Of a stretch of 64,000 nt of DNA, positions 2,847 to 32,357 are shown piece after piece. Source of the DNA: Hirudinaria manillensis. Taxonomy: Eukaryota > Annelida > Clitellata > Hirudinida > Hirudinidae. Each line of letters opens with the position of its first letter. Position 1 is the first letter of the stretch. The notes beneath the pieces are model-generated. The model searched no databases, had not been told where the DNA came from, and saw nothing but the letters and a program-made list of their open reading frames with translations. Where the stretch lies: the NCBI GenBank assembly GCA_034509925.1, contig CM067528.1, forward strand, positions 1,634,501 to 1,698,500. Direction: 5' to 3'. The position numbers and the translations under genes were made by a program.

Positions 2847-3635
2847 ATGGATGACGAACGGTGCTGCAGCTACCTGGAAAAAATGAAGAGATTCCGTAAA
2901 CTCCACGACGAGATGCAAATTCTCGATGGCGTCTTGGATCAACTTTACCAGAAAACAGGATCGTTGGACGACGCAGAAATCTGTCTGTCCGTCGGGACTG
3001 GCTGGGGAGAATATGACATCAGGTTCGTTAAACGATTCATGCCGAATCTTAAGAAGTTCATTGCCGTCGAAATGGATCACTGTTCGGTGGAAGAACTGAA
3101 AAGGAATTTGGAGGACACCTTCGGAAGTAAACTGCAAGTTGAAATCTACGAGATGCTCATAGAAGATTTTCAGAAGAATACGAGAGAAAATAATGCCTTG
3201 AAGCAAGAAGCTGACGTTGTTTTGTGTTGTCATTCGTTGTACTCCTTGGATCCGAACGGAAGAATGGAATTCTTCAAATCCTGTACAGATTCATGGCTCA
3301 AACCTGAAACCGGAAAGATAGTCATCGGTAGCAGCGTTCACAAAGACAATGACGTGGCCAGACTTCACGAAAAAGTCAGAAACGAATCTCATACCACTAT
3401 GGACGTGCTGGAGGCTGAACTGAAGCTCTTTGGCTGGAAGCCGTTCCAGGAGGTATGCTACGAAACGACCTTCGATGTTAGCGACTCGCACGAGGCTTAC
3501 GAGGGCATGTTCACGCACAGTGATCAGGTCGAAGAGGAGGTTTTCAAGAAATATTTGGAGGAACTCGCTCGGGATGGAACCCTAATCCAACGGAGCAAGT
3601 TGAGTATTTTTGAGAAACTGGTTCTTCAGTCTTGA
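2847..3635 (+). CDS. Histamine N-methyltransferase-like class I SAM methyltransferase
   Basis: A 262-residue open frame in one coding exon. Residues about 43-58 (AEICLSVGTGWGEYDI) form a class I SAM-binding motif I. An acidic strand end (IAVEMD, about 73-78) fits motif II, and VVLCCHSLYSLDP (about 126-138) resembles the HNMT/carnosine-methyltransferase region following motif III. Length and order fit animal HNMT (about 290 aa), slightly shorter at the N-terminus. The reaction expected for the family is SAM-dependent methylation of a small imidazole or related amine in the cytosol; the substrate here is unknown. A 5' untranslated exon is likely: donor AAAC/gtaagt after 2634, acceptor tttcag at 2827, 19 bp before the ATG. 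A poly(A) signal cluster follows at about 3779-3787. Family is fairly sure, substrate is not. Confidence 0.75.
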   Translation: MDDERCCSYLEKMKRFRKLHDEMQILDGVLDQLYQKTGSLDDAEICLSVGTGWGEYDIRFVKRFMPNLKKFIAVEMDHCSVEELKRNLEDTFGSKLQVEIYEMLIEDFQKNTRENNALKQEADVVLCCHSLYSLDPNGRMEFFKSCTDSWLKPETGKIVIGSSVHKDNDVARLHEKVRNESHTTMDVLEAELKLFGWKPFQEVCYETTFDVSDSHEAYEGMFTHSDQVEEEVFKKYLEELARDGTLIQRSKLSIFEKLVLQS

Positions 3636-7060: not shown

Positions 7061-8362
7061 ATGGTTTGGACAATGCAGAGTGACAGCGAGAAGACAGTTG
7101 GAGTCGTCGCTAACGGCGAAGTCCAGGTAAAAAGAAAATTATTTATTTTTACTCAAATAAATGAATTGTAATTTTAATAATAGTTTTTTTAATATCTGTT
7201 AAATTTAAAAACATCTTTTAGCAGCCAAAGAGGTCAAACACAAAGAAGTACGTGATCATTGGTGTTACCAGCGTAACAGTTGCTGTGCTGCTCATCATTG
7301 GACTGCTTGTTGGCATCTATCTCTTCACTGATGCATTCAACAAGATTGCTACTGTAAATGTTTTATTTTATTTAATTTAGTGATGATTTTTGTAAAATTC
7401 ATTTAATTAATGCACCATTAATACTAACCCATGAATACTAATCCATTTAATTCATGTTTAATACTAACCCATTCCAGCAATCTTTGAAAACGAGCCAAAA
7501 CACCAACCAAGAAGTGACAGCTGATCTGACTGCAAACATCATTCAATACGACGTTGAAGACAAAGGCATCAAGGCTGTTTATGTGGAAGATTACAATTCG
7601 GTATTAATGCGACAAATTAAATCATAGAAAATAATAAAAGCAGAAAATAACAAATTCATTTCTCCATTTCGTTTCAGTTTTTGACTGTGGTCAAGTTGAC
7701 CAAAGACAAGGATGTTCAGTGCTACGCAACCTTCATGAATGGCACTGAAAAAATGGACATGAGCAAAGTTGGATCGGCGGTACAAAAGGTGAACTATCTT
7801 CTAAACAATATTAACTTTTTATTTATACACCATTACAATACACGATTGATATTATTTGATTATTGTATTCTTTAAAATTGTATTTGTCTCTCTGGAAACT
7901 ACTATAAATTGTGAACAACCAGGTTGATATGATATAAATTTTAACTTCATTTAAACACAATTTCGTTAAACTATTTTTTTGATAATTTCTATTAAAAATC
8001 ACAGGAGGAGACAAACGAAACTGTTGATTACATGAGAATCGGTGCCCCAATTCCGGACATCGGCTTCATGAATAAAAAAGCTCGAAACTTGTGCCAAGGA
8101 ATTTCTACCTACTGGGTACAACGAAGCTGCCCCCAGTCGAAGGGTTAAGAAATTTGCACTCATTTAACTTTATTATTATTATTATTATTATTAATATTAT
8201 TCTAATCATTAAACTCGAATGACAATCTAATCTATTCTATATCTTGTAACAGACGTCCAGAAGGTGAAGCGGGGTGTTTGCCGCGTTTGTGTGTACAGGT
8301 GCACCTTGTTGTACGGTTCAACATATAGTTGTCGTTACGCTTGCTACTACGTGAAGTGCTGA
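7061..8362 (+). CDS. BRICHOS-domain precursor A with six-Cys cationic C-terminal peptide
   Basis: Six exons: 7061-7126, 7222-7353, 7478-7600, 7678-7788, 8005-8143, 8253-8362; 226 aa. Order: cytosolic tail (about 1-31), one membrane segment (about 32-56, VIIGVTSVTVAVLLIIGLLV), linker, BRICHOS domain with Cys in KDVQCYAT and ARNLCQG, then KVKR followed by a 29-residue terminal peptide. That peptide has Cys at 3, 6, 10, 20, 24 and 29 (C-x2-C-x3-C-x9-C-x3-C-x4-C) around a Tyr-Gly-Ser-Thr turn, plus several Arg/Lys. This is the arrangement of annelid arenicin/alvinellacin/capitellacin precursors, where BRICHOS chaperones a beta-hairpin antimicrobial peptide released by a furin-like protease. Antimicrobial action here is inferred. 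A poly(A) signal is at 8532-8537. Exon 2 has a NAGNAG acceptor (ttttagCAG). Confidence 0.85.
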
Positions 8363-10853: not shown

Positions 10854-11946
10854 ATGGTTTGGACAATGCAGAGTGACAGCGAGAAGACAGTTGGAGTCGT
10901 CGCTAACGGCGAAGTCCAGGTAAAAAGAAAATTATTTATTTTTGCTCAAATAACTGAATTGTAATTTTAATTATAATTTTTTTAATATCTGTTAAATTTA
11001 AAAACATCTTTTAGCAGCCAAAGAGGTCAAACACAAAGAAGTCCGTGATCATTGGTGTTACCAGCGTAACAGTTGCTCTGATACTCATCATTGGACTGCT
11101 TGTTGGCATCTATCTCTTCACTGATGCATTCAACAAGATTGCCACTGTATGGATTTTACTTATTAAACTTTATTAACTCTTTAATTCTGATTTATTTATT
11201 TTAAATACTATTTCCATTCCAGCAATCAATTAAAACTAATCAGAACACCAACCAGGACGTGACTGCCGATTTGACTAGCAATATAGTCCAATATGACATT
11301 GATAGCAATGGCATCAAAGCTGTTTACGTGGAAGATTACAACTCGGTATCGATTCGATTGATCTATTCGATTCTATTTGTGAGAAACTAAAAAAAAATTA
11401 AAACGATTAATTCCTTATTTTGTTCTAGTTCTTGAGAGTGGTGAAGTTGACCAAAGACAAAGACGTCTTTTGCTATGCAAGTTTTATGAACGGGACTGAC
11501 AAAGTGGATCTCACCAACATTGGAAAAACATCTGACAAGGTTTGTAGCTTTGATTAAAACTATTAAAATTAATTAAATATAAAAAATATTTGATGATGCT
11601 GATCTCACTTTGATAGGTGGAGAGCAATGACACAATTACTCACGTAAGAGTCGGTGCCCCAATTCCTGACATCAGTTTCATGAACAAAAAGGCTCGCAGC
11701 TTGTGCCAGGGTATTTCTACCTATTGGGTTCAATCGAACTGTCAGCAATCCAAAGGTTAATAAAGAAATCATTTATCTAAAAAAATGGAATTTATTTCTA
11801 ATATTTTCCTTTCAATTTTGGCAGAAATTCAAAAGCAGAAAAGATCTATTTGCTACATTTGCCCATACTATTGCTATTGGGTGTATTACTACTGCTGTGG
11901 GTACAGATATTACTGCTACTTTGATTGCTATTATTACTACTGTTGA
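10854..11946 (+). CDS. BRICHOS-domain precursor B with Tyr/Cys-dominated terminal peptide
   Basis: Exons 10854-10919, 11015-11146, 11223-11345, 11429-11539, 11617-11755, 11825-11946; 230 aa. Tail and membrane segment (VIIGVTSVTVALILIIGLLV) are as in gene A. BRICHOS has Cys in KDVFCYAS and ARSLCQG. KQKR precedes a 33-residue peptide with 8 Cys (3, 6, 10, 17, 18, 24, 28, 33) and 15 Tyr, but only one Arg and one Asp. The outer six Cys share spacing with gene A; a central Cys-Cys pair is extra. With almost no net charge it is unlike classical cationic peptides of the family, so a different role (adhesive, cross-linking or membrane-active) is possible. Exon 1 is identical to that of gene A while exons 3-6 differ. 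Poly(A) signal at 12117-12122. Confidence 0.85.
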
Positions 11947-12129
11947 AAGAGAAGTTAAGAAGTCGTCGAGAATACTTTAGTACTTGGAGGTTTAAGATAA
12001 AACTAACCATCATTTGATGAAAGACTTTGCTAATCTGCTGACTTTTAATTGAAATTTTATTCCGCATTAACTCTAATTTACTCGTTCAATGAATTTATTT
12101 AATTTATATTGGGCTTAATAAAGAATTCT

Positions 12130-13590
12130 TTTTCTCAAATTGTGTTGCCAAGTATTTGTATTTTAATAATTGTTAGCAAAGAAAAACAAACCTGAAATTT
12201 GAATCCCTCGATCCAATTTAAATCGACATTCAAATTTTAATTATGCGACCTCTGAAGTTCAGTAAAAGATTTCAACCGATAAATATTTACAATGTATAAA
12301 TAAAATGTAAATAAGATTCAATACCTAACTCAACCCCGGTTTTAATTAGTTTTGCAAATTTGAAAGTATAATCAACAGTGTCGCTTGTCCCATGGGATCC
12401 CATGAATTTAAAATCTCATTATAACCAATCTCGGTAAAAAAAAAAGCCAAATTCAAAATTTAATCTCATCTAAGGCAAATTTATCAATAATGTCATTTGA
12501 TCGAGTTAATCTAATAATAGTTAACCTAATAAAAGCTTGTCAACGTCTTTTTCAGTTTGTTCTGATTTGAAGTTAAAAAATGCTAATTACAAAATATATC
12601 TAATACAAATCACTGAAATTGATATCTTCCCGTAACTATTGAACGTCTACGTATCATATAAATAAATGGGTCAGGTACGACTTATAACAACAAAATTATA
12701 GTTAAAAACCATGAGTGTCTCAACCTTATGACACGCACTGTACCATTAACGAATTTAATGAAATACAGAATTGCAAGCTTGATAAAATACATAATAAGGC
12801 TTAATTTCATCCAAAAATAATTTTTAGTCTAATTTAAACTTTTATAATTTAACTTTAAACTAACATCTCATAGGACTTTTTAGCGTAAGGACTCCAGTCT
12901 TAAAATAAAAGCTTTGGTGCTCAAAGCATCTCCAATAAGAATTCTTAAGGATTAGTGGAAGGGTTTGTCTTGAGTTACCAGCAAATTTGAAGGAATTGTA
13001 TTTTATTAATTTTAAAAATAACTGACATAAATAAAATAACAATCATAGCAACGATATGAAAAACAGGCAGCAATGTCCCTTGCGCTGTCATATCAATCAA
13101 ACCAAGCTGTAAACAAGGAAGTTGGACGCCCGTCGATTTTTTTTGTGTGAATATAATTGACATTTTAGGTGATTTAAATATAAAACTTAGTTTTAAAAAT
13201 ATTATAATATCGTTTAAATTCAAAATTAAGTCGTTATAAATAATATAATTTAATTTAATTAATTAATTAATATCAAAAATGTCGTCTTTCATTAATCGAT
13301 TCATCTCTTCGCGCAATTTCTTTCTTTTTTTTTTGCTTCAATCCAAATGTTGAATCCGAAAAATGGAGAAGATTTTGGACCAAAGTTGTAATAATGACCC
13401 TGAATGGCGTTTATAATTATTTTCGGGTTTTTTTTAGCTTATTTGAATATTCAATTTTATTTGAAAAATGAAACTATTTATAACAGGTACTTAGAAAACA
13501 AGGAGAAAAAAATGGCTAATGGTAACTATACATTGCAATAATAATTCATAATCTCAGAACAGATAGCAATAAAAATAAATTTTATGTATT
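12130..13590. other. Gene B 3' flank and spacer
   Basis: Contains copy 2 of the 8.5-kb flank repeat (about 12,490-12,830) and AT-rich spacer. The minus-strand open frames at 12.86-13.22 kb show no recognisable domain and are not called. Confidence 0.5.
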
Positions 13591-14129
13591 TTCCCAGTTT
13601 CAATTTATTTTTATTCCAATGGCAAAATAATATCTGACAGTTGAAAATATTGATGAATAATAATATTTAAATAATCAAAGTCCGAGATAGTTTCTTGCGA
13701 TTACTTTTGAGAAAGATTTTCAAAACTGCATTTCAGTGTTAAATATTTTTGCCAAACCACCAAACGTTACTAAATATTATATTTTCATGAAAATAAAGAC
13801 AGGTTCAAGTTGAGTGTAGATTAAATTTTTAATCTGAATCAAACAATTATGAAAAAAAAATTATTGTAATAAATAATAAATTGTTGTCCATTATCCACAA
13901 AAAGGTACAAGATATAATCTACTTAACTTTTCATTTTCCATGCGGCCATACCTGATAATTGAATATTGATACCTTGAGACATTGAAATCCAAAGTGCGTT
14001 GAAATTTACAGAGGTATATATTATGATTATATTGTGATAAAGTATTTATTGCATTTGAAAGAAAACAAGTCTTTGAACAAGTAGAGAAGGCAAGTAAATA
14101 ATTATATTATTATTTATTATATTATATTT

Positions 14130-15540
14130 TTTTTTTTACAAACTGAAGGGCCCAATAGGACCACTAACACAGTTTTGTCAATTCGAGCAAGGACAAATGA
14201 CAAATGACAGTAAGAGTCATGTGGCGATAATGACTACAATGGAGTCAGTTATATGTAAGGTACTTTGGCAGAAAAAGATTTCCTGATCATCCAAGTGATT
14301 TTGGCAGCTTTGTGAGTGATGGCTTCAATATGGGTAACAAACTTCAAAGGACCTATTACGACTCCGAGATCTCTAACCATGTCCATGCTTTGAAGGGCCT
14401 GACCGTTGATGGAGTATTTCCGGAGTTCGGCTGTTCTCTTTCTGCTGCCGGCTATAGTGAAGATCTGCCATTTATCAGGTGCAACTGCCATGTATTACTC
14501 CATTGTGCGACCTTATCAAGAACTGATTGTAACTGTGTTTGTGAAGGCGTTGGGAGGCAATAGAGCTTAACATCATCTGCAAATAGTTTGCAGACAATAT
14601 TAGTATCTTTAAACAGATTTGGGAGGTCATTGATGTATAGTGAGAGGAGAGTAGGTCCAAGTACAGTGCCCTGGGGGACGCCGCTGGTGACACAGGCCGT
14701 ATCTGATAGAATTCCACCGATATAAACACGTTGGCTCCTCAATGATAGGAAGTCGGTGAGCCATCCTATAATGTTGCCACTGATGCCGTAATGAGGTAGT
14801 TTGCTTAAGAGTTTGTAGTGTGATACTGAGTCAAAAGCCTTTTTGAAGTCGAGATATGCAACATCCACTGACTGTCCAGATTGGAGTGCTTCCGACCACT
14901 GTTGCATGCATTCAAGAAGATTTGTTACAGTAGATCTGCCTCTGACAAATCCGTGCTCATCCTTGCTTATTAATTTGTGGTGCAGTAAATGATGCATAGA
15001 TGCATAATTGTCTTGTTGATGATCCTCTCCATTACACGACAACGGGTATGAAGCTTACTATCGACATATCTGTGGAACCTTCCAAAATTTTTGCTCTTAA
15101 GTAAATTAAGTTCCAATGATGCATAGTGCTGCTTGATGGATTTACTAGAGTAACTGTAGATATTGTTATTTGATAAGTCCAATTGAAGGCAGGGAGATTG
15201 AAATCTCCGATTAAGCAGATGGTGTGTTTGATTGAACAAAAATGATAAAAGCACTTGATGCTCTCATTGGCGTAGTTCTCGGCCTCCGCGTCAAAACCTC
15301 CATAACATCTGCAGCATTTTTTCGAACATACTTTCTGCAAAGTCGCCCAGAACTTCTCTCGGGAAATCTTCCGATGTAGACGTTTTTGTTGACCTAGGCA
15401 TAGCGAAAAAGATGCTCGACAAAATTGAAACAGAAAAACACCGAACTTAAGACCCAGAAACGAAATTTGAGATAATTAAATCGTTCAAAAGTTCGAGATT
15501 GAAATCAAAACAACCGCTCTTATCGCCCACGACAAGTTAA
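14130..15540 (-). mobile_element. LINE (non-LTR retrotransposon) fragment inserted in satellite
   Basis: Minus-strand element with a poly(T) run at about 14,130-14,140 (its poly(A) tail). It carries an endonuclease C-terminal fragment (GDFNLPAFNW, near 15,170-15,200) and reverse-transcriptase motifs in 14,452-15,042: motif A YLDFKKAFDSVSH, motif B GVPQGTVLGP, motif C FADDVKLY. The frame shifts around 14,460-14,490, after which the C-terminal part continues (14,249-14,491). The endonuclease-to-RT spacing is too short, so there is an internal deletion. It resembles the Jockey/CR1-type clade. Not active. It splits the ATATT satellite of the second flank copy, giving a clean insertion site. Confidence 0.85.
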
Positions 15541-15562
15541 TATTATATTATATTATATTATT

Positions 15563-15800
15563 ATTGTTACTTCAATAGGTTGCTGCTGTATTTTTTATAA
15601 TTATATTTCGTTGAACGAACAGGTAAAGAAATTCCAGATTTCAATCTTTCTTCCTTAAAAATTTTACTTTGCTGACTCAAGTGGGCCATCCTTGTCAAAC
15701 ATTGATTGACAGTTTTGTCTATATTTGTTTCAAAATGAGAATAAAAATATATAAGAAATGTCGACGAACGAATTTTGAGAATCACGACAAATTAATTAAT
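15563..15800. repeat. Upstream block, copy 2
   Basis: Near-identical to 9,715-9,960; lies between the LINE 5' edge and gene C. Confidence 0.85.
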
Positions 15801-16144
15801 TAATTTAATTAAGAAATTTAAACAAACATAATATTTTAATAAAGAACGACTAATTTTAATCATTAAATTCATTAAATAAATTTTCTTAAAATTTTGAATT
15901 TTTTTCATTGAGAAAAAGAAATTTATTACAATAGCTTTCATCATTTTGTGATGGTGCAATCAAAGGCATTAATTTTACAAACGCCAGATTTCTTAGTGGT
16001 CGATAATATAAAAAGTTAATCGATAGTAAATCATTTTAGTAATCATTTTGTTATTCAATTTCTGTCATTCAACGGAGACTATTTAAAGCCGAACGCTCTC
16101 AACAGTTCCAATTTGATTTTGCAGCTCTAGCAGGTATTCTGATA

Positions 16145-17232
16145 ATGGTTTGGACAATGCAGATTGACAGCGATAAGAAAGTTGGAGTCGTCGCTAATGG
16201 CGAAGTCCAGGTAAAAAGAAAATTATTTATTTTTACTCAAATAAATGAATTGTAATTTTAATAATAATTTTTTTAATATCTGTTAAATTTATACACATCT
16301 TTTAGCAGCCAGAGCAGTCAAACACAAATAAGTGCGTGTTCCTTTGTGTTATCGGCGTAATAGGTGCTGTGATGGTCATCGTTGGACAGCTTGTTAACGT
16401 CTATCTCCTCACTGATGCATTCAACAAGATTGCCACTGTATGGATTTTACTTATTAAACTTTATTAACTCTTTAATTCTGATTTATTTATTTTAAATACT
16501 ATTTCCATTCCAGCAATCAATTAAAACTAATCAGAACACCAGCCAGGACGTGACTGCTGATTTGACTAGCAAAATAGTCCAATATGACATTGATAGCAAT
16601 GGCATCAAAGCTGTTTACGTGGAAGATTACAACTCGGTATCGATTCGATTGATCTATTCGATTCTATTTGTGAGAAACTAAAAAAAATTAAAACGATTAA
16701 TTCCATATTTTGTTCTAGTTCTTGAGAGTGGTGAAGTTGACCAAAGACAAAGACGTCTTTTGCTATGCAAGTGTTATGAACGGGACTGAGAAAGTGGATC
16801 TCACCAACATTGGAAAAACATCCGAAAAGGTTTGTAGCTATGATTGAAACTATTAAAATTAATTAAATATAAAAAATATTTGATGATGCTGATCTCACTT
16901 TGATAGGTGGAGAGCAATGACACAATTACTCACGTAAGAGTCAGTGCCCCAATTCCTGACATCAGTTTCATGAACAAAAAGGCTCGCATCTTGTGCAAGG
17001 GTACTCCTACCTATTGGGTTCAATCGAACTGTCAGCAATCCAAAGGTTAATAAAGTAATCATTTATCTAAAAAATGGAATTTATATCTAATATTTTCCTT
17101 TCATTTTTGGCAGAAATTCAAAAGCAGAAAAGATCTATTTGCAACATTTGCCCATACTCTTGCAATTGGGTGTATTACTACTGCTGTGGGTACAGATATT
17201 ACTGCTACTTTGATTGCTATTACCACTGTTGA
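16145..17232 (+). CDS. BRICHOS-domain precursor C
   Basis: Exons 16145-16210, 16306-16437, 16514-16636, 16719-16829, 16907-17045, 17114-17232; 229 aa. The membrane exon is strongly altered relative to gene B: 19 of 44 codons differ, every one an amino-acid change, including Gln and Asn within the hydrophobic run (VGQLVNVYLL). The following 76-bp intron is identical to that of B. BRICHOS Cys are in KDVFCYAS and ARILCKG. KQKR is intact before a 32-residue terminal peptide with 8 Cys and 10 Tyr, where several Tyr of gene B are replaced by Asn, Ser or His and one codon is missing near the end. The polar membrane segment may still anchor, or the product may behave differently. Confidence 0.82.
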
Positions 17233-17942
17233 AAGAGAAGTTAAGAAGTCATCGAGAATACTTTAGTACTTGGAGGTTTAAGATAAAACTAACCAGCCTT
17301 TGATGAAAGACTTTGCTAGTGACTTTTAATTGGAATTTTATTCCACACTAAACTCTAATTTACTCGTTCAATGAATTTATTTAATTTATATTGGGCTTAA
17401 TAAAGATTTATTTTTCTCAAATTGTGTTTCCAAGTTTTTATATTTTAATAATTGTTAGCAAAGAAATAAACCTGAAATTTGAATCCCTCGATCCAATTTA
17501 AATCGACATTTAAATTTTAATTATACGACCTCTGAAGTTCAGTAAAACATTTCAACCGATAAATATTTACAATATATAAATGTAAATAAGATTCAATACC
17601 TAACTCAACCCTGGTTTTAATTAGTTGTGTAAATTTGAAAGTATAATCAATAGTGCCAACTTAAAATCTCATTATAACCAATCTCGGTAAAAAAAAAAGC
17701 CAAATTCAAAATTTAATCTCTTCTAAGGCAATTTTATCATTAATGTCGTACATTCGACTCGACCTAGTAATGATGTTAATGCTTAAAATCATGAAATTAA
17801 AATCATAATTGCTCTACCAACATCGAGATCAACATCAACTAAACTAAGCAGTCGAACTCTATGACTTTACTCGTAACATTCCTCCTTTTGTTGAAATCAA
17901 GGGTTTTCCCAGGAAAGACAGAAACTGATTCTCGTCTGGTTT

Positions 17943-19093
17943 CTAATTGAAGAGACTGAAGATAAAGCATCCCACTTCTGCCACCCAGCAGTGATCTCCG
18001 CAATCCCAAATGTTTCGAATGAATCTGCATGCATAGTTACAAATCTGACCGCAGTTGCCTCTTTTCTGTCTGACGACTCCTATGAGAATCATCATGAAAA
18101 AGTAAACTCATCAACTCATTTCTAGGTTTTTTTTTAAATAAATTTATTAAATGATGAGAGCTTCATGGTCGATCAATGATGATGGCTGGTGACTTAATTG
18201 TGTCTGCAAATCTGTAATCTAATTTTGTGGAAATGAAGTCGAAATTGAATCAAATATAATCTAATAAAGAATATACGTACCACCAGCAGGTTGCCATATA
18301 GGTATCGTCCAATAAGTCAAGACATTTTTGCACATATTTCGCGCCTTTCTATTCAGGAAGCTGATGTCAGGGATGGGCAGAGTATTCCTCAGGTAAAAAA
18401 AGTTTTGTTCTGAATGCCACCTACCAATACACCACATTAATATTAGATTTTACCGATATATTCAACATCAGGCACGTTGAATCACGAGTTATTCGTAACA
18501 TTTGAGCCTTTTATAACCATTAGAAATTCGTTTTATCATGAAATTTATGAAAATTATCCAATAACCGTATCCGCCACCGTATTGATTCGAGATGAATCAG
18601 GCATTTGAGTTTCGTTTATCGTTGACGCGTAGCAGACGATTCCGGAAGGCGTGGAAACCCTAACAACTTCCACAAACTTTATAAGAATAAAATAAGTAAT
18701 AAATTTTTGATCTAATTAATTTTTGTTATTTTAACTATAATTATCATAAATTAATTATTATAATTGTAAATGTTTTTACAATCACGCGATAACTTCAAAT
18801 TTGAAAGCATCACTAACAGAATTGAAATCGTCAACATAGTCCACGTTAACGTCGCCATCTTTGACTTGATATTCTATTGTTCCGCTGGTTGTATCGAAAT
18901 AAATATCTTGTTTCGTCTCTTTTCTGATCCTGATTGATCGCTGAAAACAGGAGTTTGAAAGTAACATAAATAAAGTAACATAAATACAGCCATAGTTTTA
19001 TGTCTCAAAGTGCAAACAATCTACGAGATTGAAAATTTCGTCAGTTTGCAACTTAAAGAAAGTACCGCTTCGATTCTGTGAAAGACTTCCGTT
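17943..19093 (-). pseudogene. Broken copy of the divergent BRICHOS gene F
   Basis: Recognisable exons on the minus strand, numbered as in gene F: exon 6 17943-18079 (intact RQKR and six-Cys terminal peptide frame), exon 5 from about 18410 down to 18281 (5' end lost), exon 4 18566-18676 (FVEVVRVS), exon 3 18818-18940, and only the last 28 bp of exon 2 (19066-19093). The membrane exon is cut at 19093/19094, where LINE-derived sequence begins. Exon 5 is broken at about 18410, where an inverted copy of 22,240-22,369 begins. With no anchor or start exon it cannot make the full precursor, although the terminal-peptide exon is still clean. Confidence 0.8.
18410..18538. repeat. Inverted repeat arm 1 (arm 2 at 22240-22369)
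   Basis: About 125 bp, the reverse complement of 22,240-22,369 essentially without mismatch. It includes a TTATAAAAGGCTC promoter-like motif on the minus strand. Confidence 0.85.
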
Positions 19094-19510
19094 GCTTGAT
19101 GGATTTACTACAGTAACTGTAGATATTGTTATTTGGTACTGCATGATAAGTCCAATTGAAGGCAGGGAGATTGAAATCTCCGAGTAAGCAGATGGTGTGT
19201 TTGATTGAACAAAAATGATAAAAACACTTGATGCTCACATTGGCGTAGTTCTCGGCCTCCGCGTCAAAACCTCCATAACATCTGCAGCATTTTTTCGAAC
19301 ATACTTTCTGAAAAGTCGCCCAGGACTTCTCTCGGGAAATCTTCCGATGTAGACGTTTTTGTTGACCTAGGCATAGCGAAAAAGATGCTAGACAAAATAG
19401 AAACAGAAAAACACTGAACTTAAGACCCAGAAACGAAATTTGAGATAATTAAATCGTACAAAAGTTCGAGATTGAAATCAAAACAACCGCTCTTATCGCC
19501 CACAACAAGT
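19094..19510 (-). mobile_element. LINE 5' fragment upstream of gene D
   Basis: Minus-strand frame contains CLLGDFNLPAFNWTY, the endonuclease tail of the LINE at 14.1-15.5 kb. It joins satellite remnants and the upstream block exactly as in gene C's flank, showing that the D flank was copied after the LINE had inserted. Confidence 0.8.
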
Positions 19511-19534
19511 TAATATTATATTATATTATATTAT

Positions 19535-19780
19535 TATTGTTACTTCAATAGGTTGCTGTTGTATTTTTTATAATTATATTTCGTTGAACGAACAGATAAA
19601 GAAATTCCAATTTCAATCTTTCTTCCTTAAAAATTTTACTTTGCTGACTCAAGTGGGCCATCCTTGTCAAACCTTGATTGACAGTTTTGTCTTTATTTGT
19701 TTCAAAACGAGAATAAAAATATACAAGAAATGTCGACGAACGAATTTTGAGAATCACGACAGAAATTAATTAATTTATTT
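19535..19780. repeat. Upstream block, copy 3
   Basis: Near-identical to 9,715-9,960, with a small deletion that shifts the minus-strand frame. Confidence 0.85.
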
Positions 19781-20119
19781 AATTAAGAAATTTAAACAAA
19801 CACAATATTTTAATAAAGAACAATTAAATTTTAATAATTAAATTCATTACATAAATTTTCTTAAAATTTGGAATTTTTTTCATTGAGAAAACGAAATTTA
19901 TTACAATAGCTTTCATCATTTTGTGGTGGTACAATCAAAGCCATTAATTTTACAAACGCCAGGTTTCTTAGCGGTCGATAATATGAAACGTTAATCGATA
20001 GTAAATCATTTTAGTAATCATTTTGTTATTCAATTTCTGTCATTCAACGGAGACTATTTAAAGCCGAACGCTCTCAACAGTTCCAATTCTACTTTGCAGT
20101 TCTAGCAGGTATTCTGATA

Positions 20120-21214
20120 ATGGTTTGGACAATGCAGATTGCTGAGAATAAGAAAGTTGGAGTCGTCGCTAATGGCGAAGTCCAGGTAAAAAGAAAATTA
20201 TTTATTTTTACTCAAATAAATGAATTGTAATTTTAATAATAATTTTTTTAATATCTGTTAAATTTATACACATCTTTTAGCAGCCAAAGCAGTCAAGCAC
20301 AAATAAGTGCGTGAACTTTTGTGTTACCATCGTAGCAGTTACTGTGATAGTCATCGGTGGACTGGTCGTTGACGTCTATCTCGGCACTGGTGCATTCAAC
20401 AAGATTGCCACTGTATGGATTTTACTTATTAAACTTTATTAACTCTTTAATTCTGATTTATTTATTTTAAATACTATTTCCATTCCAGCAATCAATTAAA
20501 ACTAATCAGAACACCAGCCAGGACGTGGCTGCTGATTTGACTAGCAATATAGTAAAATATGTCATTGATAGCAATGGCATCAAAGCTGTTTACGTGGAAG
20601 ATTACAACTCGGTATCGATTCGATTGATCTATTCGATTCTATTTGTGAGAAACTAAAAAAAAATTAAAACGATTAATTCCATATTTTGTTCTAGTTCTTG
20701 AGAGTGGTGAAGTTGACCAAAGACAAAGACGTCTTTTGCTATGCAAATTTTATGAACGGGACTGACAAAGTGGATCTCACCAACATTGGAAAAACATCCG
20801 AAAAGGTTTGTAGCTATGATTAAAACTATTAAAATTAATTAAATATAAAAAATATTTGATGATGCTGATCTCACTTTGATAGGTGGAGAGCAATGACACA
20901 ATTACTCACGTAAGAGTCAGTGCCCCAATTCCTGACATCAGTTTCATGAACAAAAAGGCTCGCATCTTGTGCAAGGGTACTCCTACCTATTGGGTTCAAT
21001 CGAACTGTCAGCAATCCAAAGGTTAATAAAGAAATCATTTATCTAAAAAAAAATGGAATTTATATCTAATATTTTCCTTTCATTTTTGGCAGAAATTCAA
21101 AAGCAGAAAATATCTATTTTCAGCATTTGCCCATACTATTGCAATTGGGTGTATTACCACTGCTGTGGGTACAGATATTACTGCTACTTTGATTGCTATT
21201 ATTACTACTTTTGA
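20120..21214 (+). CDS. BRICHOS-domain precursor D, processing site and two Cys altered
   Basis: Exons 20120-20185, 20281-20412, 20489-20611, 20695-20805, 20883-21021, 21093-21214; 230 aa, frame fully open. Against gene C the membrane exon has 16 changed codons, all amino-acid changes, now with Asp inside the hydrophobic run (VVDVYLG). In the last exon the Lys-Arg site reads Lys-Ile (AGA to ATA). Terminal-peptide Cys 3 has become Phe and the final Cys 33 has also become Phe, leaving six of eight Cys. The paired loss suggests these two were disulfide partners. Without the dibasic site the peptide may stay attached or be cut elsewhere. The open frame and intact splice sites argue against simple decay, but a pseudogene is not excluded. 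Confidence 0.8.
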
Positions 21215-27361: not shown

Positions 27362-27477
27362 CGACAGATTAATCGATAGTAAATCATTTTAGTAATCATT
27401 TGTTATTCACTTTCTGTCATTCAACGGAGACTATTTAAAGCCGAAAGCTCTCAACAGTTCCAATTTGACTTTGCAGA
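27362..27477 (+). promoter_or_regulatory. Orphan BRICHOS promoter and 5' UTR
   Basis: The stretch from the CGATAGTAAATC region through TATTTAAA (27432-27439) to CTTTGCAG matches the B-E promoters, but stops before the ATG and joins the fourth exon of a gene F relative in opposite orientation. Confidence 0.75.
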
Positions 27478-28090
27478 CGATTCCGGAAGGCGTGGAAACC
27501 CTAACAACTTCCACAAACTTTATAAGAATAAAATAAGTAATAAATTTTTGATCTAATTAATTTTTGTTATTTTAACTATAATTATTATTAATTAATTATT
27601 ATAATTGTAGATGTTTTTACAATCACGCGATAACTTCAAATTTGAAAGCATCACTAACAGAGTCCATTGCCGTTAGCGACATTCATCGCCACCAACCAAA
27701 GATTTGTTTATTTCGATTTGCGATACTAAAACGACATTGACATGATATAAATTATACATTTTCGGAAAGGTAATAGAATAAACAATTTGATTATGTAAGT
27801 CATGGAGTCACTAACAGAATTGAAATCGTCAACATAGTCCGCATTAACGTCGCCATCTTTGACTTGATATTCTATTGTTCCGCTGGTTGTATCGGAATAA
27901 ATATCTTGTTTCGTCTCTTTTCTGATCCTGATTGATCGCTGAAAACAGGAGTTTGAAAGTAACATAAATAAAGTAACATAAATACAGCCATAGTTTTATG
28001 TCTCAAAGTGCAAACAATCTACGAGATTGAAAATTTCGTCAGTTTGCAACTTAAAGAAAGTACCGCTTCGATTCTGTGAAAGACTTCCGT
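27477..28090 (-). pseudogene. Fragment of a gene F relative with a small insertion
   Basis: Minus strand: partial fourth exon (27477-27517), complete third exon (27816-27938) and the last 27 bp of the membrane exon (28064-28090), then LINE fragment as at 19,094. A 147-bp insertion (27661-27807) flanked by TCACTAACAG on both sides lies in the intron next to the third exon. Confidence 0.75.
27661..27807. mobile_element. Short insertion with 10-bp target duplication
   Basis: TCACTAACAG occurs at 27651-27660 and again at 27808-27817; the other three copies of this locus have it once. No terminal inverted repeat or tail was recognised, so the element class is open. Confidence 0.6.
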
Positions 28091-28505
28091 TGCTTGATGG
28101 ATTTACTACAGTAACTGTAGATATTGTTATTTGGTACTGCATGATAAGTCCAATTGAAGGCAGGGAGATTGAAATCTCCGAGTAAGCAGATGGTGTGTTT
28201 GAACAAAAATGATTAAAACACTTGATGCTCTCATTGGCGTAGTTCTCGGTCTCCGCGTCAAAACCTCAATAACATCTGCAGCATTTTTTCGAACATACTT
28301 TCTGAAAAGTCGCCCAGGACTTCTCTCGGGAAATCTTCCGATGTAGACGTTTTTGTTGACCTAGGCATGGCGAAAAAGATGCTAGACAAAATAGAAACAG
28401 AAAAACACTGAACTTAAGACCCAGAAACGAAATTTGAGATAATTAAATCGTTCAAAAGTTCGAGAGTGAAATCAAAACATTCGCTCTTATCGCCCACAAC
28501 AAGTT
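28091..28505 (-). mobile_element. LINE 5' fragment upstream of gene E
   Basis: Same junction and content as 19,094-19,510, part of the duplicated flank. Confidence 0.8.
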
Positions 28506-29107: not shown

Positions 29108-30193
29108 ATGGTTTGGACAATGCATATTGACAGCGATAAGACAGTTGGAGTCGTCGCTAATGGCGAAGTCCAGGTAAAAAGAAAATTATTTATTTTTACT
29201 CAAATAAATGAATTGTAATTTTAATAATAATTTTTTTAATATCTGTTAAATTTATACACATCTTTTAGCAGTCAAACACAAATAAGTGCGTGATCTTTTG
29301 TGTTACCATCGTAGCAGCTACTGTGATAGTCATCGGTGGACTGGTCGTTGACGTCTATCTCGGCACTGGTGCATTCAACAAGATTGCCACTGTATGGATT
29401 TTACTTATTAAACTTTATTAACTCTTTAATTCTGATTTATTTATTTTAAATACTATTTCCATTCCAGCAATCAATTAAAACTAATCAGAACACCAGCCAG
29501 GACGTGACTGCTGATTTGACTAGCAAAATAGTCCAATATGACATTGATAGCAATGGCATCAAAGCTGTTTACGTGGAAGATTACAACTCGGTATCGATTC
29601 GATTGATCTATTCGATTCTATTTGTGAGAAACTAAAAAAAAATTAAAACGATTAATTCCTTATTTTGTTCTAGTTCTTGAGAGTGGTGAAGTTGACCAAA
29701 GACAAAGACGTCTTTTGCTATGCAAGTTTTATGAACGGGACTGACAAAGTGGATCTCACCAACATTGGAAAAACATCTGACAAGGTTTGTAGCTTTGATT
29801 AAAACTATTAAAATTAATTAAATATAAAAAATATTTGATGATGCTGATCTCACTTTGATAGGTGGAGAGCAATGACACAATTACTCACGTAAGAGTCAGT
29901 GCCCCAATTCCTGACATCAGTTTCATGAACAAAAAGGCTCGCATCTTGTGCAAGGGTACTCCTACCTATTGGGTTCAATCGAACTGTCAGCAATCCAAAG
30001 GTTAATAAAGAAATCATTTATCTAAAAAAAAATGGAATTTATATCTAATATTTTCCTTTCATTTTTGGCAGAAATTCAAAAGCAGAAAATATCTATTTTC
30101 AGCATTTGCCCATACTATTGCAATTGGGTGTATTACCACTGCTGTGGGTACAGATATTACTGCTACTTTGATTGCTATTATTACTACTTTTGA
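29108..30193 (+). CDS. BRICHOS-domain precursor E, sister of D
   Basis: Exons 29108-29173, 29269-29391, 29468-29590, 29674-29784, 29862-30000, 30072-30193; 227 aa. The membrane exon resembles D (CVIFCVTIVAATVIVIGGLV, then VDVYLG) but lacks three codons near its start (in-frame 9-bp loss). The terminal exon shares D's changes: Lys-Ile instead of Lys-Arg, and Phe for the first and last Cys of the peptide. BRICHOS Cys are present. All splice sites are intact and the promoter has TATTTAAA at 29043-29050. D and E therefore form a sub-lineage with the altered terminal peptide; both keep an open frame. Confidence 0.8.
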
Positions 30194-30919: not shown

Positions 30920-32357
30920 CTAATCGAAGAGACTGAAGATAAAGCATCCCACTTCTGCCACCCAACAGTGATCTCCGCAATCCCAAATGTTTCGAATGAA
31001 TCTGCATGCATAGTTACAAATCTGACCGCAGTTGCCTCTTTTCTGTCTGACGACTCCTATGAGAATCATCATGAAAAAGTAAACTCATCAACTCATTTCT
31101 AGGTTTTTTTTAAATAAATTTATTAAATGATGAGAGCTTTATAGTCGTTCAATGATGATGGCTGGTGACTTAATTGTGTCTGCAAATCTGTGATCTAATT
31201 TTGTGGAAATGAAGTCGAAATTGAATCAAATATAATCTAATAAAGAATATACGTACCACCAGCAGGTTGCCATATAGGTATCGTCCAATAAGTCAGGACA
31301 TTTTTGCACATATTTCGTGCCTTTCTATTCAGGAAGCTGATGTCAGGGATTGGCAGAGTATTCCTCAGGTAAAAAAAGGTTTTGTTCTGTTCTTGTGAAT
31401 GGATGCTCTTGATACAAATATTTTTCTCAAACTTATTAAAACGTTTAAAGTACAAATTTCAAAATACAAAATCCTTTACTAAAAAATATCTTCAAAAACT
31501 TTGTGTAGCATTTGAATTTATTCAATTTATGACACCAAGGATATCATGAAATTTATGAAAATTATCCAATAACCGTATCCGCCACCGTATTGATTCGAGA
31601 TGAATCAGGCATTTGAGTTTCGTTTATCGTTGACGCGTAGCAGACGATTCCGGAAGGCGTGGAAACCCTAACAACTTCCACAAACTTTATAAGAATAAAA
31701 TAAGTAATAAATTTTTGATCTAATTAATTTTTGTTATTTTAACTATAATTATTATTAATCAATTATTATAATTGTAGATGTTTTTACAATCACGCGATAA
31801 CTTCAAATTTGAAAGCATCACTAACAGAATTGAAATCGTCAACATAGTCCGCGTTAACGTCGCCATCTTTGACTTGATATTCTATTGTTCCGCTGGTTGT
31901 ATCGAAATAAATATCTTGTTTCGTCTCTTTTCTGATCCTGATTGATCGCTGAAAACAGGAGTTTGAAAGTAACATAAATAAAGTAACATAAATACAGCCA
32001 TAGTTTTATGACTCAAAGTGCAAACAATCTACGAGATTGAAAATTTCGTCAGTTTGCAACTTAAAGAACGTACCGCTTCGATTCTGTGAAAGACTTCCGT
32101 ACTTAAGTAGATCCAGATGAGCAAGACCGAGGCCGTTAAGAGCACAATCAAAAGACCAGTCGCTCCGATAAACAAACGTTTTCTCGGTGGCTTCCACCAA
32201 CCTTCCAGGCGCTGTTTTTTTTTTTCAAAGCTTAGCTATTCATTTTCTTTATTTTTTGTAGATTTCTCGGATCAAATCTAACCGTCTGGGTTTCGGGGTT
32301 CGTCCGATTCCCATCGCATTTGTTTTCCTTGCTGGCATCATACACCGCAACGACCAT
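30920..32357 (-). CDS. Divergent BRICHOS-domain precursor F with distinct six-Cys peptide
   Basis: Minus strand, exons 32283-32357, 32074-32211, 31826-31948, 31574-31684, 31257-31407, 30920-31056; 244 aa. Tail starts MVVAVYDASKENK; the second exon has PPRKRLFIGATGLLIVLLTA (anchor); BRICHOS Cys are in SGIVCYAS and ARNMCKN; LPIPDISFLNRKARN matches the plus-strand family. After VVRQKR comes a 38-residue peptide with Cys at 3, 7, 11, 20, 24 and 31 (C-x3-C-x3-C-x8-C-x3-C-x6-C) and an uncleaved hydrophobic end (FIFSLFD). Exon lengths of 123 and 111 nt are identical to genes A-E. A TTTATAAAA box sits about 41 bp before the ATG (32398-32403). The fifth-exon acceptor (31407) is the least certain border. 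The only intact member of this sub-family in the window. Confidence 0.82.

Follow-up and report, generated by a model that had tools for sequence, protein, structure and literature searches.

Why should the exon that encodes a membrane anchor, in a row of tandem gene copies, change almost exclusively at the amino acid level while the introns on either side of it stay nearly identical? The question is raised by an array of genes for BRICHOS peptide precursors in the annelid Hirudinaria manillensis, which lies in a stretch of 64,000 nucleotides (assembly GCA_034509925.1, contig CM067528.1, positions 1,634,501 to 1,698,500 of the forward strand; "the window" below means the whole of this stretch) and comprises five genes, A to E. 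In secreted defence and venom peptides, it is the mature peptide that is expected to evolve fast, while the leader or anchor is conserved. Within this one array the expected order of constraint is inverted. The explanation that we consider probable as a whole is that B to E arose recently as tandem copies of a gene that encodes a membrane-anchored BRICHOS peptide precursor, and that positive selection, at an ordinary mutation rate, has rewritten the anchor encoded by exon 2 in C, D and E; selection would then target the anchor rather than the released peptide. The array brings its own internal controls, namely near-identical introns, BRICHOS exons that change at a near-neutral rate, and an anchor that is largely kept in 27 outside relatives and nine older paralogs.

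Structure of the array

Genes A to E were modelled from sequence alone. Each has six exons, all introns are of the GT..AG type, and the reading frames contain no internal stop and end in a terminal stop. The last part of the N-terminal piece comes from exon 2, together with a hydrophobic stretch and the few residues that follow it; exons 3 to 5 encode a linker and the BRICHOS domain, and exon 6 encodes the C-terminal peptide. Positions in the window are as follows.

7061..8362, plus strand: gene A (exons 7061-7126, 7222-7353, 7478-7600, 7678-7788, 8005-8143, 8253-8362); exon 1, intron 1 and exon 2 near-identical to B, the rest diverged
10854..10919, plus strand: gene B, exon 1
11015..11146, plus strand: gene B, exon 2, membrane anchor of the ancestral type, resembling A and the outside relatives
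11147..11222, plus strand: gene B, intron 2, with no difference among B to E
11223-11345, 11429-11539, 11617-11755, 11825-11946, plus strand: gene B, exons 3 to 6; linker, BRICHOS, KR site, Cys/Tyr-rich C-terminal peptide
16145..16210, plus strand: gene C, exon 1
16306..16437, plus strand: gene C, exon 2, anchor diverged from B at 19 codons, all replacements
16438..16513, plus strand: gene C, intron 2, identical in B to E
16514-16636, 16719-16829, 16907-17045, 17114-17232, plus strand: gene C, exons 3 to 6
20120..20185, plus strand: gene D, exon 1; six neighbouring bases changed as a block relative to C
20281..20412, plus strand: gene D, exon 2, anchor diverged from C at 16 codons and from B at 18, all replacements
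20413..20488, plus strand: gene D, intron 2, identical in B to E
20489-20611, 20695-20805, 20883-21021, 21093-21214, plus strand: gene D, exons 3 to 6; KI in place of the KR site, Phe in place of the peptide's first and last Cys
29108..30193, plus strand: gene E (exons 29108-29173, 29269-29391, 29468-29590, 29674-29784, 29862-30000, 30072-30193); exon 2 D-like, with three replacements and an in-frame 9-base deletion

A scan of A, B and C with Pfam PF04089 gave 25.2 bits in A (cut-off 25) and, over the same residues 99-181, 23.1 bits in B and 24.7 in C, slightly below the cut-off. All five products have an N-terminal hydrophobic stretch that is predicted to serve as an anchor, with maxima over 19 residues of 2.61-2.83 on the Kyte-Doolittle scale. 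A search of solved structures found no relative (best E 0.42).

Replacements without silent change in exon 2

Whole-codon comparison of exon 2 among B to E yields replacements and no silent differences in every pair (replacement/silent: BC 19/0, BD 18/0, BE 16/0, CD 16/0, CE 14/0, DE 3/0), and each comparison with A includes a single silent difference (AB 3/1, AC 18/1, AD 18/1, AE 16/1). A first-pass annotation of this DNA had put the difference between B and C at 19 of 44 codons and that between C and D at 16 codons, all replacements, and our recount arrives at the same numbers and coordinates. Its statement that there is no silent change is accurate for whole-codon counts but not for pathway counting, which gives 0.5-1.5 silent steps for B-C, B-D and C-D; a few codons carry two changes, so silent steps are not strictly zero. 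Random mutation sets of equal size lack silent codons altogether in only 0.7-1.1% of cases (BC, BD, CD), about four silent codons being expected.

The replacements are concentrated in exon 2. Fisher tests of its replacement sites against the five introns give p values of 2e-8 (BC), 3e-13 (CD) and 3e-10 (CE), and in a sliding comparison of the same three pairs, segments centred on exon 2 hold 9-15 differences per 60, and the other segments hold 0-7. The DE comparison peaks (at 9) around the start and exon 1 rather than at exon 2. Assigned to branches, eight changed sites are common to C, D and E, seven are found in C only, eight in D and E only and two in D only, and five are mixed. Tests of exon 2 pair by pair give p values of 0.0017 (BC), 0.013 (CD), 0.014 (BE), 0.027 (CE), 0.032 (BD) and 0.040 (AC). 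An overlapping reading frame was also considered and rejected: all five other frames of exon 2 hold stops, and none renders the changes mostly silent.

Selection, mutation rate and relaxed constraint

A joint likelihood analysis used one tree for neutral DNA and exon 2 of B to E, with exon 2 given its own rate, its own ratio of replacement to silent substitution rates (dN/dS, here w), or both. Three neutral yardsticks were applied, namely introns, introns plus flanks, and flanks, which overlap and are not independent; in that order, exon 2 has w of 11.6, 5.7 and 4.2. If exon 2 were a mutational hotspot, produced by targeted hypermutation or error-prone repair with selection uninvolved, its own rate should suffice, and a rate-only model does beat the null (likelihood-ratio test statistic, LRT, 45.8, 31.9 and 18.6); the six neighbouring changed bases in exon 1 of D would also suit such a process. 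The selection-only model, with equal parameters, is nevertheless ahead by about 7 log-likelihood units on every yardstick (log likelihoods -864.3, -1843.1 and -1276.6, against -871.4, -1850.2 and -1283.4 for rate only). Adding w to the rate model is still needed (LRT 14.2, 15.2, 15.6), whereas adding a rate to the w model brings little (LRT 0.0, 1.0, 2.2). A hotspot is also at odds with the absence of silent codons where about four are expected (p 0.007-0.011), with the quiet exon 2 of older paralogs, and with the unclustered distribution of the changes, adjacent pairs numbering 3, 3 and 4 where 4.3-4.7 are expected. The latter result also led us to discard the idea that exon 2 underwent complex or clustered mutation. 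Silent and replacement rates in exon 2 are not raised alike, as they would be under targeted hypermutation, and we regard a hotspot without selection as very improbable.

The comparison of each exon with neutral DNA that the first-pass annotation had proposed sets exon 2 apart by its excess of replacements, in agreement with that annotation's view of the anchor segment as the hotspot of change. With introns plus flanks as the yardstick, w is 5.69 for exon 2 (LRT 46) and 3.00 for exon 1 (LRT 7.7), the signal in exon 1 being due in part to the six adjacent changed bases of D, possibly the product of a single event. Exon 6, which encodes the C-terminal peptide, has w of 1.75 (LRT 2.1, not significant), and exons 3, 4 and 5 have w of 0.97, 0.88 and 0.75 (LRT <=0.4). 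The BRICHOS exons, described earlier as nearly unchanged, are so in absolute terms, but they change at about the rate of introns plus flanks (w 0.75-0.97). With further copies aligned, silent and replacement rates did not become equal. Among the causes that had been put forward, diversifying selection is retained, being better by about 7 log-likelihood units; a hotspot without selection is rejected, and recombination alone finds no support.

Drift of C, D and E toward pseudogenes under relaxed constraint would account for exons 3 to 5 changing at about the intron rate, for the loss of the KR site and two cysteines in D and E, and for changes in exon 2 that hit conserved columns about as often as variable ones (7/12 versus 14/27). 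It would not account for an exon 2 that evolves at 4 to 12 times the neutral rate, which drift cannot exceed. Every reading frame and splice site is intact, moreover, and hydrophobicity is retained at borderline significance, and we consider such drift quite improbable. Tandem repeats are hard to assemble, and errors of assembly or base calling in exon 2 might be suspected on that account. We give this suspicion hardly any credence, because errors would not spare silent positions and preserve the frame, and the flanking introns are identical.

Introns, flanks and exchange between copies

The earlier description of intron 2 (76 bp) as the same in B to E and of intron 1 as near-constant is borne out by our counts: intron 2 differs at 0/76 sites in all six B-E pairs, and intron 1 at 0/95 among C, D and E and at 5/95 between B and each of them. 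Together, the two introns that bracket exon 2 have 0/171 variable sites among C, D and E, where exon 2 has 20/123 and the flanks have 29/520. Divergence is lower in the introns than in the gene flanks for CD (2/398 versus 21/520, p 4e-4), DE (p 7e-4), BE (p 1e-3) and CE (p 0.025), the difference being unclear in BC (p 0.07) and BD (p 0.05). The intron yardstick therefore exaggerates the effect in exon 2, although the flank yardstick alone still gives w of 4.2. Gene E matches B from intron 3 to intron 4, exon 4 included, yet goes with C and D in exon 5, a mosaic that suggests exchange between copies. Judged from such patterns, the gene bodies have most likely been partly homogenised by exchange, and with introns partly homogenised, their identity is no pure clock.

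Genes A and B have a block in common (7061-7353 and 10854-11146) that starts some two bases ahead of the ATG and ends at the junction of exon 2 and intron 2. Within it, exon 1 differs at 0/66 sites, intron 1 at 4/95 and exon 2 at 5/132, while the adjoining segments on both sides are 23-52% different. Gene A lies upstream of B to D, and its similarity to B is limited to this stretch, which runs from the start codon through exon 2. The block looks as if a start-to-anchor module had been swapped as one unit.

The A/B block and the mosaic of E (B-like introns 3 and 4 and exon 4, C/D-like exon 5) point to exchange, and they raise the alternative that C and D/E received exon 2 by exon-sized gene conversion from diverged copies that are lost or outside the assembly. 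Our own-genome searches covered the 148 Mb assembly, in which the window is part of contig C3. At E<=10, with the best candidates scored, they found no donor for exon 2 of C or D outside the array: the C query matched five places and the D query five, all within the array, and no exact copy of the exon turned up elsewhere. Exon 2 of B matched seven places, two of which, older paralogs on the opposite strand, lie a short way upstream of the window. In addition, C and D differ from A and B by 0-1.5 silent steps, whereas the divergence of A, B, C and D from four old paralogs amounts to 43-70% of silent sites. Because C and D keep the silent states of A and B and the old paralogs are far from them, exon 2 of C and D is a recent descendant of the A/B type. 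The identity of introns 1 and 2 on both sides among C, D and E also speaks against an imported exon. Any donor would in turn have had to diverge by replacements alone, so invoking one does not remove the need for selection. On this sequence evidence, a diverged donor for exon 2 of C and D seems unlikely.

The usual constraint on the anchor

An alignment search of public assemblies returned 28 relatives at E<=1e-6, of which 27 have the N-terminus; a single-protein search with B found one relative, which is included in the 28. All 28 of these listed relatives carry PF04089. Mean pairwise identity among the 27 is 68% in the transmembrane segment (TM), 52% in BRICHOS and 25% after the KR site, and among B, C and D the corresponding identities are 49%, 93% and 85% (C-terminal), which inverts the order seen in the family. 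TM identity to the relatives is 47% for A and B but 28-31% for C, D and E, the least typical relative standing at 42%, whereas BRICHOS identity to the relatives is alike in all five genes (32-34%). The residues that C, D and E have given up are among the most constant: the first basic residue (K/R in 27/27 relatives) is N, the A/G after II (26/27) is C, the Gly of LVG (27/27) is N or D, and the Phe of FT (27/27) is L or G. The motif GLLVG has become GQLVN or GLVVD.

Nine older paralogs in the same genome largely retain the anchor motif. Over the exon 2 core, the proportion of replacement to silent differences per site (pN/pS) is 0.24-0.56 in 14/14 pairs drawn from A, B and four of the old paralogs, a set from which the A-B pair (3.5 replacement to 0.5 silent) was excluded. 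Judging from these values, exon 2 is under purifying selection in this group. By comparison, C and D differ from A and B in the exon 2 core by 17-18.5 replacement and 0-1.5 silent steps. The old pair P1629-P1626 shows the reverse of C and D, with 8/134 differences in exon 2 and 29/65 in the adjacent intron piece; exon 5 of this pair is quieter still (5/135 versus 8/134). A second BRICHOS cluster (G000 C3:7123486-7140200) contains a 4.3 kb tandem duplication with 99% identity, and neither of two pairs compared there has an accelerated exon 2: the exon 2 core of Q7134/Q7128 differs by one replacement, and exon 2 of Q7129/Q7136 looks alike. The acceleration is therefore not general to the family.

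Anchor properties and the C-terminal peptide

The hydrophobic stretch has survived somewhat better than it does in equally large sets of random replacements by the 19-residue measure (p 0.044 for C, 0.049 for D), with p values of 0.018 (C) and 0.055 (D) for the TM mean and 0.027 (C) and 0.137 (D) for charged residues or proline. The anchor role has thus probably been retained while the sequence was rewritten.

At the other end of the precursor, the basic cleavage site reads KR in A, B and C and KI in D and E, and its R is present in 28/28 outside relatives. The peptides of D and E (21093-21214, 30072-30193) also have Phe in place of both the first and the last Cys, which looks as if one outer disulphide had gone as a pair. 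The joint loss of the KR Arg and two Cys fits an altered fate of the D/E peptide; with the KR site lost, this peptide is probably not set free as in the ancestral precursor. The C-terminal peptide of A (8253-8362) is cationic, with 6 Cys, 4 K+R and 6 Tyr; those of B to E (B: 11825-11946) are Tyr/Cys-rich and near-uncharged, with 6 or 8 Cys, 10-15 Tyr and 1 K+R. One outside relative, P0001, likewise ends in a Tyr/Cys-rich segment.

A model for the rewritten anchor

On the sequence evidence, the C/D/E lineage split from the A/B type, and positive selection at an ordinary mutation rate then changed exon 2 on the branch common to C, D and E and, separately, on the C branch and on the D/E branch, while exons 3 to 5 evolved near the neutral rate and the gene bodies were partly homogenised. 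The ancestral anchor motif (a basic pair, a small residue after II, LVG, FT) was dismantled in a segment that stayed hydrophobic. We infer that the anchor may still span the membrane and that its helix partners or its handling may have been re-specified copy by copy, so that near-identical BRICHOS/peptide cargoes would carry different anchors. The driver may be helix pairing, intramembrane cleavage, trafficking or an antagonist. One possibility, which we put forward tentatively, is that the TM helices diversify so that paralogs stop pairing with each other or with a shared partner, or so that cleavage changes.

Positive selection on the anchor could also reflect an arms race with an antagonist, a pathogen or host factor that binds it; we know of no antagonist for this anchor. 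Replacement-only change before and inside the transmembrane stretch would fit such a conflict, and tetherin and Vpu supply a precedent in the portion of the report cited (PMC2633611). All 27/27 outside relatives with an N-terminus keep the anchor, however, and repeat hits at the same codons are of borderline significance, which makes an arms race a rather doubtful form of the selection reading.

Several points weigh against positive selection on the anchor. The pairwise tests are partly weak (BD p 0.032, AD p 0.075, AB and DE not significant), and the short exon 2 offers few silent sites (about 33). The likelihood test assumes a single tree in spite of the evident exchange between copies, and the w near 1 of exons 3 to 5 suggests generally relaxed constraint in B to E. 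The test of hydrophobicity is borderline, D missing 5% on two of three measures, and the membrane role of exon 2 is read from hydrophobicity and family likeness. The changed residues form no significant helical-face pattern (p 0.11, 0.33, 0.14), so a helix-packing interface is without direct support. Of the 10 and 11 codons hit in C and in D/E, 6 are shared, a recurrence with a borderline p of 0.050 over 32 codons and a p of 0.008 over 44. The data, finally, are a single assembly, read as sequence only. As we read these data, the transmembrane helix is a candidate site of adaptive conflict or of insulation between paralogs, and the system is small enough for a test by the swap of a single exon of about 44 codons.

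Neighbouring features

Another BRICHOS gene occurs in copies on the minus strand (18300-19110, 27375-28130 and 31300-32230). The copy at about 32 kb has an anchor exon; those at about 19 kb and 28 kb lose likeness within it, so that their 5' part seems to be missing. Between B and C, on the minus strand (14452-15042), lies a putative reverse-transcriptase-like open frame, recognised by eye from motifs, and an intronless open frame at about 2848-3635 is, by eye, a putative small-molecule methyltransferase.

Comparison with known systems

Bri2/ITM2B is a BRICHOS protein. In the part of the study cited, a glycine in its TM promotes intramembrane cleavage by SPPL2b, and the TM contains a GxxxG that is itself not critical (PMC9722940); by analogy, the role of this glycine is a candidate parallel for the anchor Gly lost here. 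In primate tetherin/BST-2, the cited portion reports positive selection in the N-terminal cytoplasmic and transmembrane parts (PMC2633611). The array resembles tetherin as a case of a membrane protein with a selected N-terminal/transmembrane region but differs in that the tetherin changes arose between species and were driven by viral antagonists, whereas here they separate tandem paralogs in one genome.

Among the matches listed in a literature search of titles and abstract openings, with most subscription journals outside its reach, nothing concerned anchor diversification among BRICHOS copies. Membrane-anchored BRICHOS precursors are described from Heteromastus filiformis (HfBRI-20, -23, -25, -28 and -54; PMC10745061), with the same order of a short N-terminal piece, transmembrane helix, BRICHOS and C-terminal peptide; the portion cited makes no mention of anchor diversification among near-identical copies. 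As far as the cited parts of these reports go, the nearest known case is preproalvinellacin of Alvinella (PMC5431198). There, too, tandem copies of a BRICHOS precursor exchange sequence and an upstream part diversifies: the mature peptide is conserved, the propiece is under positive selection (w 4.84 for 34% of codons), and BRICHOS is diversified by Ka/Ks with a site-model test that is not significant. Almost all of those paralogs have one and the same signal peptide, and their introns are more variable than the exons, whereas here the membrane anchor is the hotspot and the introns are near identical. In conotoxin genes, according to the section cited (PMC10561478), exons are about three times as diverged as flanking non-coding DNA under positive selection, and the present array is like them in having an exon that outruns adjacent non-coding DNA with an excess of replacements. 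The conotoxin exon that diverges is that of the mature toxin, the pro-peptide being conserved, whereas in this array the exon for the C-terminal peptide is not significantly accelerated (exon 6, w 1.75, LRT 2.1) and the accelerated exon 2 encodes the anchor. Accelerated evolution limited to an exon is already known; in this array it has shifted to the membrane anchor.

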